Source of the DNA: Candidatus Zixiibacteriota bacterium
GTDB taxonomy: Bacteria > Zixibacteria > MSB-5A5 > GN15 > FEB-12
Direction of reading: 5' to 3'
Assembly: GCA_017999435.1 (NCBI GenBank)
Contig: JAGNLV010000003.1
Coordinates: 124,001 to 188,000, forward strand
Length of the DNA stretch: 64,000 nt
Of this stretch, positions 45,869-51,649 are shown piece after piece. The position numbers were made by a program, and so were the translations under genes. Within the stretch, counting starts at the first letter, position 1; each line of letters begins with the position of its first letter. A model generated the notes under the pieces. It had not been told where the DNA came from, did no database searches, and worked only from the letters and a program-made list of their open reading frames with translations.

Positions 45869-46018
45869 GTTGTTAGTCGGGGGGCGGGGCGGGGGGACGC
45901 TGAAAGTGACATGGCAATCGACGGGGGGTCGGGGGACATCTGGCGGGAGATACCACAAAAAGTATCCCGTTTCTTCCCGGCTGTGCAGTTTTTGGGCTCC
46001 CGGAGCGGGTTTTAGGCC

Positions 46019-46046
46019 TTGACAAAACGGGAGGATTTCGTATTTT
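46019..46046 (+). promoter_or_regulatory. Promoter for the 1675-residue exported protein
   Basis: TTGACA (46019-46024), a 16-nt spacer and TATTTT (46041-46046). It gives a leader of roughly 570 nt before the ATG at 46622. Confidence 0.65.
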
Positions 46047-46459
46047 GGCATCGAGCGTGTGTCACGCCCGGTGGTGAGTTCGAGAGCCACACTATGAATT
46101 CGTCGCTTGGCAAACCGCGCGAAACCTCTTTACCGGATTTGCAGTAGTTAACGCACCTCGGGCCTACTTCGGTGGTCCCGTCATGCTTGTTTGGGTGGTT
46201 CTGTTCTTTTCGGGCGGAGCTTCCCGGACAGCTGTTTACGACACTACTGCGGGCCAGCGTCCAATCGTCTTCTCACTATTTCCTTTACCTTGACATCTCC
46301 ACGAGGCGGCGGGCAACCGTTGTTGACGTGGCAGGGCAACAGGAGGTGACATACTGATACACAGACCAGATTAGTTCGCGAGCCCAGAAGCATAAGTTCT
46401 TTTTAACACAACTCCACCGGAGCCCCAAGCTCCGACTCCAAGAGATAGGAAGGAAGAAG
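46047..46459 (+). other. AT-richer 5' leader with an isolated Shine-Dalgarno sequence
   Basis: The interval is clearly lower in GC than its neighbours. It contains AGGAGGTGA (46342-46350), a perfect ribosome-binding sequence without a usable start codon after it. Very short frames are at 46094 (17 codons) and 46183. Base-paired stretches are possible, but no known RNA family was recognised. It may be a regulatory leader or a decayed gene. The part between sbcC and the promoter (45870-46018) shows nothing. Confidence 0.45.
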
Positions 46460-46621
46460 ATGATGCTGAGTGTCAAAGATTTGTTCCCGAGTTTCCCTAG
46501 ACCAACCGGCGGGAACATGGCGGAATGCCTCATGGCTGCCGATACTAGAATCGGTATGCTCGGCAAGCCGTCAGTCTTTGGCAAACAAATCATCCAGTTT
46601 CCTTGCTTAAGGAGGAAATAA
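46460..46621 (+). CDS. Possible 53-residue leader peptide
   Basis: ATGATG at 46460 follows AGGAAGGAAG. The frame runs 53 codons and ends TAA at 46619-46621, directly against the ATG of the large gene. The terminal codons AGG-AGG-AAA form the ribosome-binding sequence of the large gene. The peptide (starts MMLSVKDLFPSFPRPTGG) has no known relative and its codon use differs from the neighbourhood. It could couple translation of the next gene or be a chance frame. Confidence 0.3.
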   Translation: MMLSVKDLFPSFPRPTGGNMAECLMAADTRIGMLGKPSVFGKQIIQFPCLRRK

Positions 46622-49600
46622 ATGTTAAAAAGACTGTTCATAGCAGTATTCGTCTTGGGTCTGGTCGTAGGCCTTAGCGGTACAGCACTTTCTGACGTAG
46701 CCAAGCCGTCGTCTGCTCTGAATCCGGTCGAGAAGATCGTGCCCAACCATCCGCGTTTGGATGATGTCACGACGGCCGGGCCGGCGCATTCGGCGTTCAA
46801 GAAACCGGCAGAAGCTCTCGAGCAGCATCTCCTGCCGCCCGGTCTGCAGGTTCCGGCTCTCAAGCTGGATTACTTCTGCGACGTCCAGGATTACACGAGC
46901 GGTTCGCCCGCTTACTTCTGGACGATTCCGGATGCGTACGGGGACGACCTGTTCAACATGCGCTTCACGGCCGACGCCGGGTATGACTGTACTCTGAAGG
47001 TGGCCTGGCTTCTTATGTACGCCGACGCACAGGTTGGGTCGCCGACACTGAGAGTCTACCTCTGGGACGACGATGGTTTTGGCTTTCCAGGAAACAAACT
47101 CGACTCGGTGGATATTGCGACTCCGCCGGCCGGCGGCAGCGGTCTGTACTGGCTCTCAGCGGACTTCTCCGCTGCGGACTGGGTGTTCTCCGATGGTGTG
47201 AACTATCACCTCGGGTTCACGCAGCTCGATCAGGCCGGTTCGGTCGTCGCCGTCATTTCGGACGCTGCTGATGGTCCGTTTGCCGGTGAAGAACGCGCCA
47301 GCGAGTACTACGGGACTTCCTGGGGGACGATGTTAGGCGACTGGGGCCTCGACGTTTCGTTCTTTATCCAAGCGGAACGTTGTTGCGCCGAAATACCCTT
47401 TACCGATTGCTATTCACAAGCTTACATTGAGAACGTCGCGTACTTCTGGCGCGCGCCGCACCCGGTCTACGGGGACGAGCAGTACGCTGAGAAGTTCGAC
47501 GTGGGCGGGCCGGAGACCCTTACCTCGATCGACATCGCCATCTATGGTGGCGGCGCGACCTGGGGCTCGGTCACCGATCCCGTTGGTAACAATGACATTT
47601 ACATCCGCGTCTACGACGACAACGCCGGCTTTCCCGGCGATCTGCTGACGACGGTGACTCTGCCGGCCGGCACCTATGCCTTGTACCCGGCTCTGCAGAA
47701 TGTCCCGATGCCGGCCAACTTCGTACTGACCAACGACTTCCACGTGTCCTTCGGGACCAACGGCGTCTTTGCCACGAGCTGGGAGTCCTGCTTGTCGTCT
47801 GATGGTACGGATGGAAGCGGGCGGTCTTCGTCCTACTTCGATGGAGGAACCGGGTACGAATGGTTCTCGTTCCTCGATGGCTGGGGTATGGACGCCCAGT
47901 TCTACTGGGTTGCGAACCTCTGCAAGGACGAGTACTCCGACTGCTCGATCAACTACTGCTACAACGGCACTGCGTACTACTGGCAGCTGCCGGATCGCTA
48001 CGGCGATTACGGAGAGGCGCAGAAGTTCTCCTCGGTTGGCGAGGAGTGCCGGGTCGATGCAGTGACGATCGCCTGGTACTGGAACCGCGCGCAGTACAGC
48101 TGGCCGCGCTACACGACTCCGTCTTACATCAAGGTGTGGGCGGATGCGGGCGGCGCGCCGGGCGCTGAACTCGGCTCCCTCACCGTCAACCCGGCCGATT
48201 ACGGCATCGCCACCCCGACTCCGACGGCTTCAGTCACGCACTGGGCCACGTATGACATGGGCGGCATCACCGTCGTCGGCGACTACTGGGTGGGCGTGAT
48301 TTCGGATGCTGCGGACACACTGACCGGTATTTCCGTGCTGTCCGACGCCGGCGGCGGCGGCTGCATGGAAGGCTATGCGGAGTACTGGGGCGACTGGGGC
48401 CTCATGTATGTTGACTGGGGCTTCGGCGCCGGGTACGAAGACCTGGCGATGGTCATTGAGTCCGAGCATTGCTGCATTCCGTACAGCGAGCGTACCTGCA
48501 CCACGCCGACCGACTGGTTTACGCGCGGCTACGGGTACAATCGCTCGAACGCCTCGTTTGTTCAGATGTCGGATGCCTGGTGCGATCTGACATTGAATTG
48601 GGCCTACCCCGCGGCCACCCCGGTTGGCTTTGCCGGCCCGGTGGTGTACGATGGTAAGGTGGTCTGTTCGTTCCTGAACAACTACAAGGTGTTCGATCTG
48701 ATCTCGGGCGCCCTTCTGACGACGATCACGCCGCAGGCGGGTCCGTTCGCTCCCGGCGACATTCGGTGCACGCCGACGGTAACCACGATTGCCGGTTACC
48801 CGGATCCCGTGCTCTTCGTGACCGGCGGGACGAACGACGAGGTCCTGGCTTACAACTTCAACACCTACGCCTTGCTCTGGTCGCGCCATATCGGCAACAT
48901 GGGTCCCACCGGCGTGTTCGGCGACACGCGCTTCGGCGTGTTTGTCGTGCTGAACCAGGGCGGGACGGACGTTGTGTACTGGACGACCGACGGCGGCCGT
49001 CTGGTAGCGGCCGACGCGTTGACCGGCGCGCTGTATGGGGGCTGGGCGGTGAACCCGTTCAACCCGGGCAAGCCGTGTCACAGCTCGCTGGCGACCAACG
49101 GCAGCTTGCTGTTCTTCGGAACGCAGGCGTCGGGCGTCGAGGGCGACGTGTACGCGATCGACGCGGCCACCGGCGCCATGGTGTGGCAGTTGTCGGCAGC
49201 GGGTGGCCTGCAGGCCGCGACGGTGTATGCTTCGACCGGCGGCTACGCCGGGACCGAAGGTTTCACCGGCGGCATCGCCTTTGATCCGCAGCGCAACCTG
49301 CTGTATTTTGCCTCTCGTGCGTACTCCGGTGACTTCCCGACAGACGGTGTGTTCTATCGCGTGGCGGCGGGCACCGGTATGCTGGCCGGCCCGGCTCTGG
49401 CGGCCACGCAGACCGTGTACTCGGGCCCGACGGTGGACGCCAACCGCGTCTACGTTGCCGGTAACTCCCGCTACGTGGCGGCGCCGTTCGGCGGCCAGAT
49501 CTACGCGGTCGACAAAGCGACCGGCGTGCGCGTCTGGGCGGCCAACGCCGGCCCGTGGGGGTACATCATCAGCCCGCCGGCTCCGACGACCGCTTCTCTG

Positions 49601-51649
49601 GACGGCTGCTACAACAGCGCCGTGCTGAGCTGCGAGCCGACCGGGGTGGCGGACCTGCTGTTTGCTTTCGGGTCGTTTGGCGGCTACTACGTGTATAACG
49701 CCGAGACCGGCGACAACCTGTACTACAACCGCGTGTCGGTCGGGACCAACCCGGTCGCGCAGCGCGGATTCGGCGGCGCGTTGCAGGTCGACGACGACGG
49801 GGCCTCTCACCTCCTCTTTGCGGACAACTCCGGCAGACTGTACGACCTGACCAAGCAGGGCGACCGTCCGCGCCTGGAGATCCAGCACTACGACATGAAG
49901 GTGCCGTGTCCGTTCGGTACCGACCCGAACTACCTGCTGACGATCCCGGATGTGTACACGAACACCGGTTGCGCCGACCTCCACTTCACGAACGTGATCG
50001 TGGATGAGATCTCGGTGGCCAACCAGTGGATTCCCGATATCGTGGCGCAGTATGTGCCGGACGACGTCATGATGAAGGCTGCCGGCATCGCCGATCGCCT
50101 GACCGATTTCCAGTTCTCGGGCAAGTTCCTGCGTGAAGCGGACGCGACCGAGGACGTGGTGATCGCGAGCGACGATCTGGAACGCCGCACGAACTACGCG
50201 GCGGCCGGCGTCCCGGCCTGGTTTAACTCGATGCTGCATCCGGCCATCGGCGATGTCCTCATCGCCGGCGACACGATGGATCTGCAGTTCTACGTGAACC
50301 AGGCAATGATCCTCCGCGGCGCGCAGGACTTCTACCTGCAAGTCGATTCGGATGATCCGGAGTTCTTCCTGAACGACGTCAACAAGCTGCCGGAGCAGCA
50401 CGTTGTGGTCGTGGGCGGGTGCTTGACCGATACGACGACGCTGATTTTCGGCGTCGGCGGCGCGAACGAGCGTCTGGTCAGCAACACCGGCCGCCTGGCG
50501 ACGGGCGACTGGGGCGACGGCCCGGCCGGCTACAATGGTATCACCATCGACGGTGACGTGAGCAGCTACTTCCAGGGCTCGTTTGCCTTCATGGGCAGCA
50601 AGTACCAGGTGGCGGCGAACACCGACGACTGGGGCGGCGGCGGCACGGCCATGGTGTCGATGCAGGGCGACCCGAACTGGTGCGACGACGACTGCAAGCC
50701 GGCGCTTCAGACGGGTGTGACCCTCGGCTACATCACCGGCGACGGTGGTCTGACGTACGACCCGATCCTGGGCAACCGCGTGTGCTACACCATCCTCGAC
50801 TCCGTGCAGAATTTCGATGCCGGCACGGGCTGGGATTGGACGTGGTACGACGCGCCGTTCGACAATGCCCTGACCATGGGTCTGTACGCGAACTGCCGCG
50901 CGGTGGGTGCGCTCGACGTACCGGAGTTGGCCAACATGACCATCGACGTGATGGAAATCACGGAGCGCAATGGCAATGCGGTCGACGGCTGGTACCTGTC
51001 GCACTTCTTCGATTGCGACAACGGTTCGGATACGATCCAGTACAACGGCACGTACTCCGTGGCCTGGACGCTGGACGGCGGCGCCGCGCAAGCGATCGGG
51101 AACGTGAAGATCCCGTTCGGCTGCGGTTACACGCCGATCGTCAACATCTGGGGCACCTACGGGGTGAGCGGCTCCCACGGCTTCTGGGATTGGACCCAGT
51201 ACTGGGATACGGCGTACTGGTACTGCACTCAGGGCTACGGCGCCAAGACTGAGGCGACCGGCATGCACGGCGGCGACGAAGAAGCGCACGTGACCCTGGA
51301 TCAGCACAACTTCGCTCCGAACGAAACCTATACGGTGGGTATTGCCACGTTCGAGTTGTTCGGTCTGACCAATTCGTTGGATGCGAACAATCCGGACATC
51401 ATTGCGCTGGCGAAGATCGCCAACCAGTGGGCCGGTTTTGGCCGCGGCGACGTGAACAACGACGGCGCGATCAACCTGGCGGACATTATCTACCTGGCCG
51501 GCACGGTCAACGGCGGTCCTGGGGCGATTCCGTTCCAGCACCTGGCCGATGTCAATGCGGACGGCAACATCGACGTGGTCGATGTCGACTTCCTCATCGA
51601 CTACTACTTCAACTGCGGGCCGTGCCCGACCGGCGACTGGATCTTCTAA
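46622..51649 (+). CDS. Giant exported multi-domain protein: triple repeat, beta-propeller, dockerin
   Basis: 1675 residues. A signal peptide (about 1-24) is followed by three tandem domains of about 175 residues (84-253, 262-435, 440-618). Each has Y[FY]W..P..YGD near its start, a [IV]xVxxDxxGxPG-type block and a closing Cys pair. Residues about 645-1080 are PQQ-like propeller blades (VYAIDAATGAMVWQL, IYAVDKATGVRVWAA). The C-terminus has two dockerin-type loops (GDVNNDGAINLADIIYL and DVNADGNIDVVDVDFLIDYYF). A strong promoter, long leader and strong terminator suggest high expression. It may be a major surface protein; the function is unknown. AAGGAGGAAATA precedes the ATG. Confidence 0.85.
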   Translation: MLKRLFIAVFVLGLVVGLSGTALSDVAKPSSALNPVEKIVPNHPRLDDVTTAGPAHSAFKKPAEALEQHLLPPGLQVPALKLDYFCDVQDYTSGSPAYFWTIPDAYGDDLFNMRFTADAGYDCTLKVAWLLMYADAQVGSPTLRVYLWDDDGFGFPGNKLDSVDIATPPAGGSGLYWLSADFSAADWVFSDGVNYHLGFTQLDQAGSVVAVISDAADGPFAGEERASEYYGTSWGTMLGDWGLDVSFFIQAERCCAEIPFTDCYSQAYIENVAYFWRAPHPVYGDEQYAEKFDVGGPETLTSIDIAIYGGGATWGSVTDPVGNNDIYIRVYDDNAGFPGDLLTTVTLPAGTYALYPALQNVPMPANFVLTNDFHVSFGTNGVFATSWESCLSSDGTDGSGRSSSYFDGGTGYEWFSFLDGWGMDAQFYWVANLCKDEYSDCSINYCYNGTAYYWQLPDRYGDYGEAQKFSSVGEECRVDAVTIAWYWNRAQYSWPRYTTPSYIKVWADAGGAPGAELGSLTVNPADYGIATPTPTASVTHWATYDMGGITVVGDYWVGVISDAADTLTGISVLSDAGGGGCMEGYAEYWGDWGLMYVDWGFGAGYEDLAMVIESEHCCIPYSERTCTTPTDWFTRGYGYNRSNASFVQMSDAWCDLTLNWAYPAATPVGFAGPVVYDGKVVCSFLNNYKVFDLISGALLTTITPQAGPFAPGDIRCTPTVTTIAGYPDPVLFVTGGTNDEVLAYNFNTYALLWSRHIGNMGPTGVFGDTRFGVFVVLNQGGTDVVYWTTDGGRLVAADALTGALYGGWAVNPFNPGKPCHSSLATNGSLLFFGTQASGVEGDVYAIDAATGAMVWQLSAAGGLQAATVYASTGGYAGTEGFTGGIAFDPQRNLLYFASRAYSGDFPTDGVFYRVAAGTGMLAGPALAATQTVYSGPTVDANRVYVAGNSRYVAAPFGGQIYAVDKATGVRVWAANAGPWGYIISPPAPTTASLDGCYNSAVLSCEPTGVADLLFAFGSFGGYYVYNAETGDNLYYNRVSVGTNPVAQRGFGGALQVDDDGASHLLFADNSGRLYDLTKQGDRPRLEIQHYDMKVPCPFGTDPNYLLTIPDVYTNTGCADLHFTNVIVDEISVANQWIPDIVAQYVPDDVMMKAAGIADRLTDFQFSGKFLREADATEDVVIASDDLERRTNYAAAGVPAWFNSMLHPAIGDVLIAGDTMDLQFYVNQAMILRGAQDFYLQVDSDDPEFFLNDVNKLPEQHVVVVGGCLTDTTTLIFGVGGANERLVSNTGRLATGDWGDGPAGYNGITIDGDVSSYFQGSFAFMGSKYQVAANTDDWGGGGTAMVSMQGDPNWCDDDCKPALQTGVTLGYITGDGGLTYDPILGNRVCYTILDSVQNFDAGTGWDWTWYDAPFDNALTMGLYANCRAVGALDVPELANMTIDVMEITERNGNAVDGWYLSHFFDCDNGSDTIQYNGTYSVAWTLDGGAAQAIGNVKIPFGCGYTPIVNIWGTYGVSGSHGFWDWTQYWDTAYWYCTQGYGAKTEATGMHGGDEEAHVTLDQHNFAPNETYTVGIATFELFGLTNSLDANNPDIIALAKIANQWAGFGRGDVNNDGAINLADIIYLAGTVNGGPGAIPFQHLADVNADGNIDVVDVDFLIDYYFNCGPCPTGDWIF

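Follow-up and report, generated by a model that had tools for sequence, protein, structure and literature searches.

A conserved structured leader with a short open frame ahead of a giant exported-protein gene in Zixiibacteriota: a probable translational-coupling RNA

Why should the gene of a giant exported protein begin some 570 nucleotides (nt) away from its promoter? In the DNA analyzed here (the window: 64,000 nt, positions 124,001 to 188,000 of contig JAGNLV010000003.1 from a Candidatus Zixiibacteriota bacterium), the gene for a 1675 amino acid (aa) exported protein (46622..51649, + strand) is preceded by a leader of approximately 46053-46621, which ends in a short open reading frame (ORF) of 53 codons plus TAA (46460..46621, + strand); the TAA touches the ATG at 46622. 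Comparison with the leaders of relatives shows that this region carries a conserved, covarying RNA structure, and that the short frame is conserved beyond chance: most relatives keep it open from a conserved start as far as the main start codon. The leader is probably a cis-acting structured device that couples translation of the giant gene to that of the short frame.

The conserved fold and the isolated Shine-Dalgarno

The center of the fold is a multibranched, covarying core at 46450..46603 (+ strand), with the loop motif TTCCCTAGAC at 46493-46502. Its model, R1, was built from 18 leaders and has 148 positions and 45 pairs; the window matches it with 108.9 bits. Covariation was compared with shuffled and slid controls, both without a tree model: 83% of cells are paired in R1 vs 75% when shuffled and 33-52% when slid, and 31 of the 45 pairs display changes on both sides (vs 17.8). 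A further hairpin is found at the predicted transcript start (46054..46114, + strand), where the 5'-terminal element AGCGTGTG is followed by a stem (46073-46080/46097-46104) with the conserved loop CGAGAGCCACA; here 79% of cells are paired across 31 leaders (69% shuffled, 33-45% slid), and both-side changes occur in all 12 pairs (12/12 vs 7.2). The same architecture returns in most leaders when each is folded separately. Lack of any conserved pairing or reading frame among relatives would have told against the sequence-only reading of this locus; the aligned leaders show both to be conserved.

The Shine-Dalgarno (SD) sequence of the giant gene, TAAGGAGGA (46608..46616, + strand), lies inside the 3' end of the leader ORF and is predicted to be buried by an upstream anti-SD; CTCC at 46436..46439 (+ strand) is predicted to pair with GGAG at 46611-46614, with a probability of 0.98 in the window. 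Separate folds of most relatives likewise predict pairing of the gene's SD with a CTCC 165-210 nt upstream, the mean paired probability of this SD across the folded leaders being 0.95; in several leaders of family f4 the pairing partners are CTCCTTA and TAAGGAG. The AGGAA and start codon of the leader ORF are predicted to lie inside the same long helix. A small hairpin, CGGAGC-CCCAA-GCTCCG (46418..46434, + strand), is also predicted in the window and appears as GGAGY/RCTCC variants in the aligned leaders.

Upstream of the core stands an isolated SD, AGGAGGTGA (SD1; 46341..46349, + strand), with no start codon in reach, ~110 nt 5' of the short frame and ~290 nt 3' of the predicted transcript start. 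That this perfect SD is followed by no gene had been seen in the window and is confirmed; no frame beginning at SD1 is conserved across the leaders examined. Of 52 leaders, 47 have a GGAGG between -380 and -225, where 3.6 would be expected; judged from this comparison, SD1 is under selection. It is predicted to be mostly paired in the leaders (mean 0.84), and may act as a standby platform as in tisB, as a competitor for the anti-SD, or as a stabilizer.

The short frame and its peptide

The start of the short frame has a conserved position, with ATG, GTG or TTG a few bases 3' of AGGAA. The frame spans the whole core and is 50-57 codons long in the family of the window and ~70 in family f4; its last codons, ...CTTAAGGAGGAAATAA, contain the giant gene's SD, an arrangement that the sequence-only reading had described and that holds, with the frame kept in relatives. 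Read from the conserved start, frame 0 is open in 35 of 43 leaders, vs 0 and 2 in the other two frames. A rule-based test that is free of any chosen start finds an open frame up to the start of the giant gene in 39/54 leaders, while the controls give 12/54 (antisense), 11/52 (upstream window) and 10.6 (dinucleotide shuffling); leader counts are non-independent, which weighting by genus corrects in part, and the weighted result is 24.5/37 vs 7.2. An initial view, that indels put the frame out of step with the main ATG and that it is not conserved, was rejected, as each leader's own start gives an open frame in most.

The junction between the two frames is variable. Relative to the main ATG the stop falls at -3 in the window (TAAATG), and elsewhere at +4 (ATGTTAA), +5 (ATGCTTAA, ATGTTTAA, ATGTTTAG) or +8, rarely at -2 or -7; in G016, G007 and G032 the short frame is fused to the next one. 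In total the short frame ends at -7 to +8 or is fused in about 36 leaders. Several of the leaders with a broken frame (G009, G039, G056 and G060) have a stop that overlaps a new start codon, from which reading continues to the main start.

The peptide itself does not appear to be selected. Between close relatives, substitutions over the three codon positions number 48/54/52 in the short frame and 89/104/175 in the main gene, and one and the same stretch of conserved nucleotides codes for FPRH, SLD or PWT depending on the genus; therefore it is the open frame, rather than the peptide, that is kept. Kept open across many genera with no sign of peptide selection, the frame is not a protein gene, past or present. 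A functional small protein is accordingly very improbable, although the frame is open in most relatives and alike residues (MNSLTK, FPRH) occur within one family; the equal substitutions and the change of reading frame by genus both stand against it. The same counts and the genus-dependent reading of the motif yield no selected peptide for a peptide-sensing leader of the attenuator or arrest-peptide type. A decayed gene, as proposed by the sequence-only reading, or a featureless AT-rich spacer has the lower guanine-cytosine (GC) content of the leader in its favor; this explanation is refuted by the covariation and is contradicted by the conserved promoter and motifs, the single copy per genome and the kept frame, which leaves it with next to no credibility.

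The leader is also retained where the gene behind it is a different one. In G007 (L132), G032 (L135) and G004 (L133) it precedes another exported protein, with GEVED and dockerin domains in G007; between the two lies an extra open frame of ~165 codons, with a non-conserved peptide and an ATGA junction at its end. Here too, the three codon positions have changed about equally often (66/66/71 for G007/G032). The stretch covered in G020 (L100) is short and shows the leader followed by the beginning of an extended frame of this kind. Gene loss behind a kept leader was considered for G007, G032 and G004 and ruled out, as the other exported protein follows the extended frame. The fold and the open frame persist while the downstream gene, the junction and the reading frame change; this is a clean comparative example of a frame that stays open for the sake of being translated and not for its product, and it cautions against taking every small conserved frame as protein-coding.

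Coupling, sensing or stabilization

Under the coupling mechanism, the giant gene would be silent or weakly translated when no ribosomes are on the short frame. A ribosome translating that frame would open the core and free the SD, and would finish on the main start codon, where the same or the next ribosome could start the giant protein. With less certainty, SD1 could be a standby site for 30S subunits or a competitor in anti-SD pairing, and a role of the 5' hairpin could be to help ribosome loading or to shield the 5' end. The touching stop and start fit both models of coupling, unfolding and re-initiation. Several points weigh against this mechanism. The evidence is comparative or predicted throughout. 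The SD:anti-SD bases are almost invariant across leaders, and the SD helix is therefore a prediction repeated across relatives rather than a proof by covariation. About one quarter of the leaders are without a clean frame (e.g. G003/G031/G075, G005, G013, G068 and family f2), hence the frame is not indispensable everywhere; furthermore, the leader ORF has a weak SD of its own (AGGAA), and its start is itself predicted to be paired. Finally, some of the starts behind the 35/43 count were picked by eye; the start-free test removes this bias and returns a smaller excess.

Neither pairing nor coding explains the near-invariant loop sequences, which would be accounted for by a riboswitch or other sensor in which access to the SD is set by a ligand, a protein or an RNA bound at the loops CGAGAGCCA and TTCCCTAGACA, the short frame merely assisting. 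The CU-rich stretch, SD1, anti-SD and SD2 may follow a 1-2-3-4 order, which would suit such a switch. However, the element is tied to one gene per genome and not to a pathway, no known aptamer is present, and a sensor leaves the kept open frame unexplained; it is considered an unlikely alternative. Similarly tentative is the suggestion that the leader represents a new cis-regulatory RNA class of one Zixiibacteriota order, in which the fold senses a cellular signal and is worked by the passage of ribosomes through a message-free open frame.

The STAB-SD of cry3A stabilizes its messenger RNA (mRNA), and the present leader resembles that of cry3A in its length and in having an SD without a gene; no covarying core or coupling frame is known in the cry3A leader. 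By analogy, 30S subunits at SD1 and the 5' hairpin would block decay, and the open frame would keep ribosomes on the leader as a guard against Rho or nucleases. The conserved SD with no gene after it, a trait in common with a STAB-SD leader, and the covarying 5' hairpin are consistent with this mRNA-stabilizing role, another suggestion of the sequence-only reading; folding, however, predicts a paired SD1 in most leaders, SD1 is far from the predicted 5' end, and neither the covarying core nor the stop on the main start is explained. Stabilization is rather improbable as the function of the leader, but may be an additional effect, with which SD1 and the 5' hairpin agree.

Translational coupling of neighboring genes has been described by models of RNA unfolding and of re-initiation (PMC12548453). 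The leader would share with such pairs the unfolding of RNA and re-initiation at a touching stop and start; it differs in that the peptide of the upstream partner is unselected and that this partner is conserved along with a dedicated RNA fold. The nearest worked example is the upstream ORF of Mycobacterium tuberculosis ppe2, on which translation of the main gene depends (PMC11260477). Both systems have a short frame in a structured leader with a stop overlapping the main start; ppe2, however, has a B12 riboswitch, an AUGA overlap and no SD at its main gene, whereas the Zixiibacteriota leader has no known aptamer, a strong SD that is predicted to be buried, and variable junctions that include fusions. 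The standby leader of Escherichia coli tisB (PMC7708055) has a buried ribosome-binding site, a ribosome platform ~100 nt upstream and structure near the 5' end, to which the predicted burial of the SD, the candidate platform SD1 and the 5' hairpin would correspond here; standby in tisB uses single-stranded RNA together with a pseudoknot, whereas SD1 is an SD-like sequence predicted to be paired. The element represents a structured RNA family absent from Rfam, and its forms in relatives offer a natural variant series for testing the unfolding and re-initiation models.

Promoter, distribution and the giant gene

The promoter is of the sigma-70 type, TTGACA-16-TATTTT (46019..46046, + strand), with the -35 at 46019-46024, the -10 at 46041-46046 and a 16-nt spacer; it is the single promoter-like site on the + strand between 45700 and 47000. 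A transcript start near 46053 is predicted from the promoter and the spacing of the motifs. In most relatives the promoter is kept at -534 to -657, with a conserved motif directly 3' of it. The GC content of the leader is 0.524 vs 0.653 for the window, and just 0.3% of window stretches of the same length are as low. Both the distant promoter and the lower GC content had been pointed out by the sequence-only reading and are borne out. An inverted repeat, CTCCCGGAG (45997..46009, within the region 45990-46018), lies directly 5' of the -35 at a position that is conserved in relatives; most of these have a palindrome, GGAAA-N2-4-TTTCC, at that place, the window having a different inverted repeat. 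The repeat or palindrome is probably a transcription-factor site and possibly an operator.

Among 80 genomes of one Zixiibacteriota order, 49 have an R1 match, always a single one, and all 47 matches at a stricter cut-off among 132 genomes of the phylum fall inside that order; both searches, of the order and of the phylum, were run with stricter filters and may have missed weak matches, and absence outside the order applies at that sensitivity. The named relatives are mostly Candidatus Zixiibacteriota or GN15. A putative second copy at C2:409416 (L002, L101) was rejected, as it shares only the promoter letters and is missing the motifs. The aligned leaders have a common order of motifs: in the 5' part the promoter, AGCGTGTG, the hairpin with loop CGAGAGCCACA, a CCTCTTT-like stretch and the isolated GGAGG, and in the 3' part CAGAAGC, the GGAGY/RCTCC hairpin, CTCC...AGGAA, TTCCCTAGACA, a TGCC/GGCA arm and TAAGGAGGAA-ATG. 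No Rfam covariance model matches the leader at its gathering score, with one chance-level match below threshold (E 0.14), and the literature searches of this analysis found no work on structured RNAs in this phylum. An undescribed regulatory RNA, which had been among the initial proposals, is well supported by the covarying structure, the predicted sequestration of the SD, the single copy per genome and the lack of an Rfam match. The assembly that contains the window (G000) gave no match to 16S rRNA.

The giant protein features a signal peptide, a match to a PQQ-type propeller and a C-terminal dockerin type I domain, and is found in 51 of 61 genomes. Its paralogues in G019, G036, G002, G040, G048 and G052 have short leaders without the core motif. 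In a DNA search that covered 60 relatives, many gave matches to the 3' part of the leader and to the beginning of the gene. At 46622-46666, the opening ~15 codons of the giant gene, the nucleotides are conserved, third positions included, as ATGTTAAAAAGACTG.TAATCGC.GTATTC, and CGACTAAC is retained even where a different gene stands downstream; the RNA element may continue into the codons of the giant gene.
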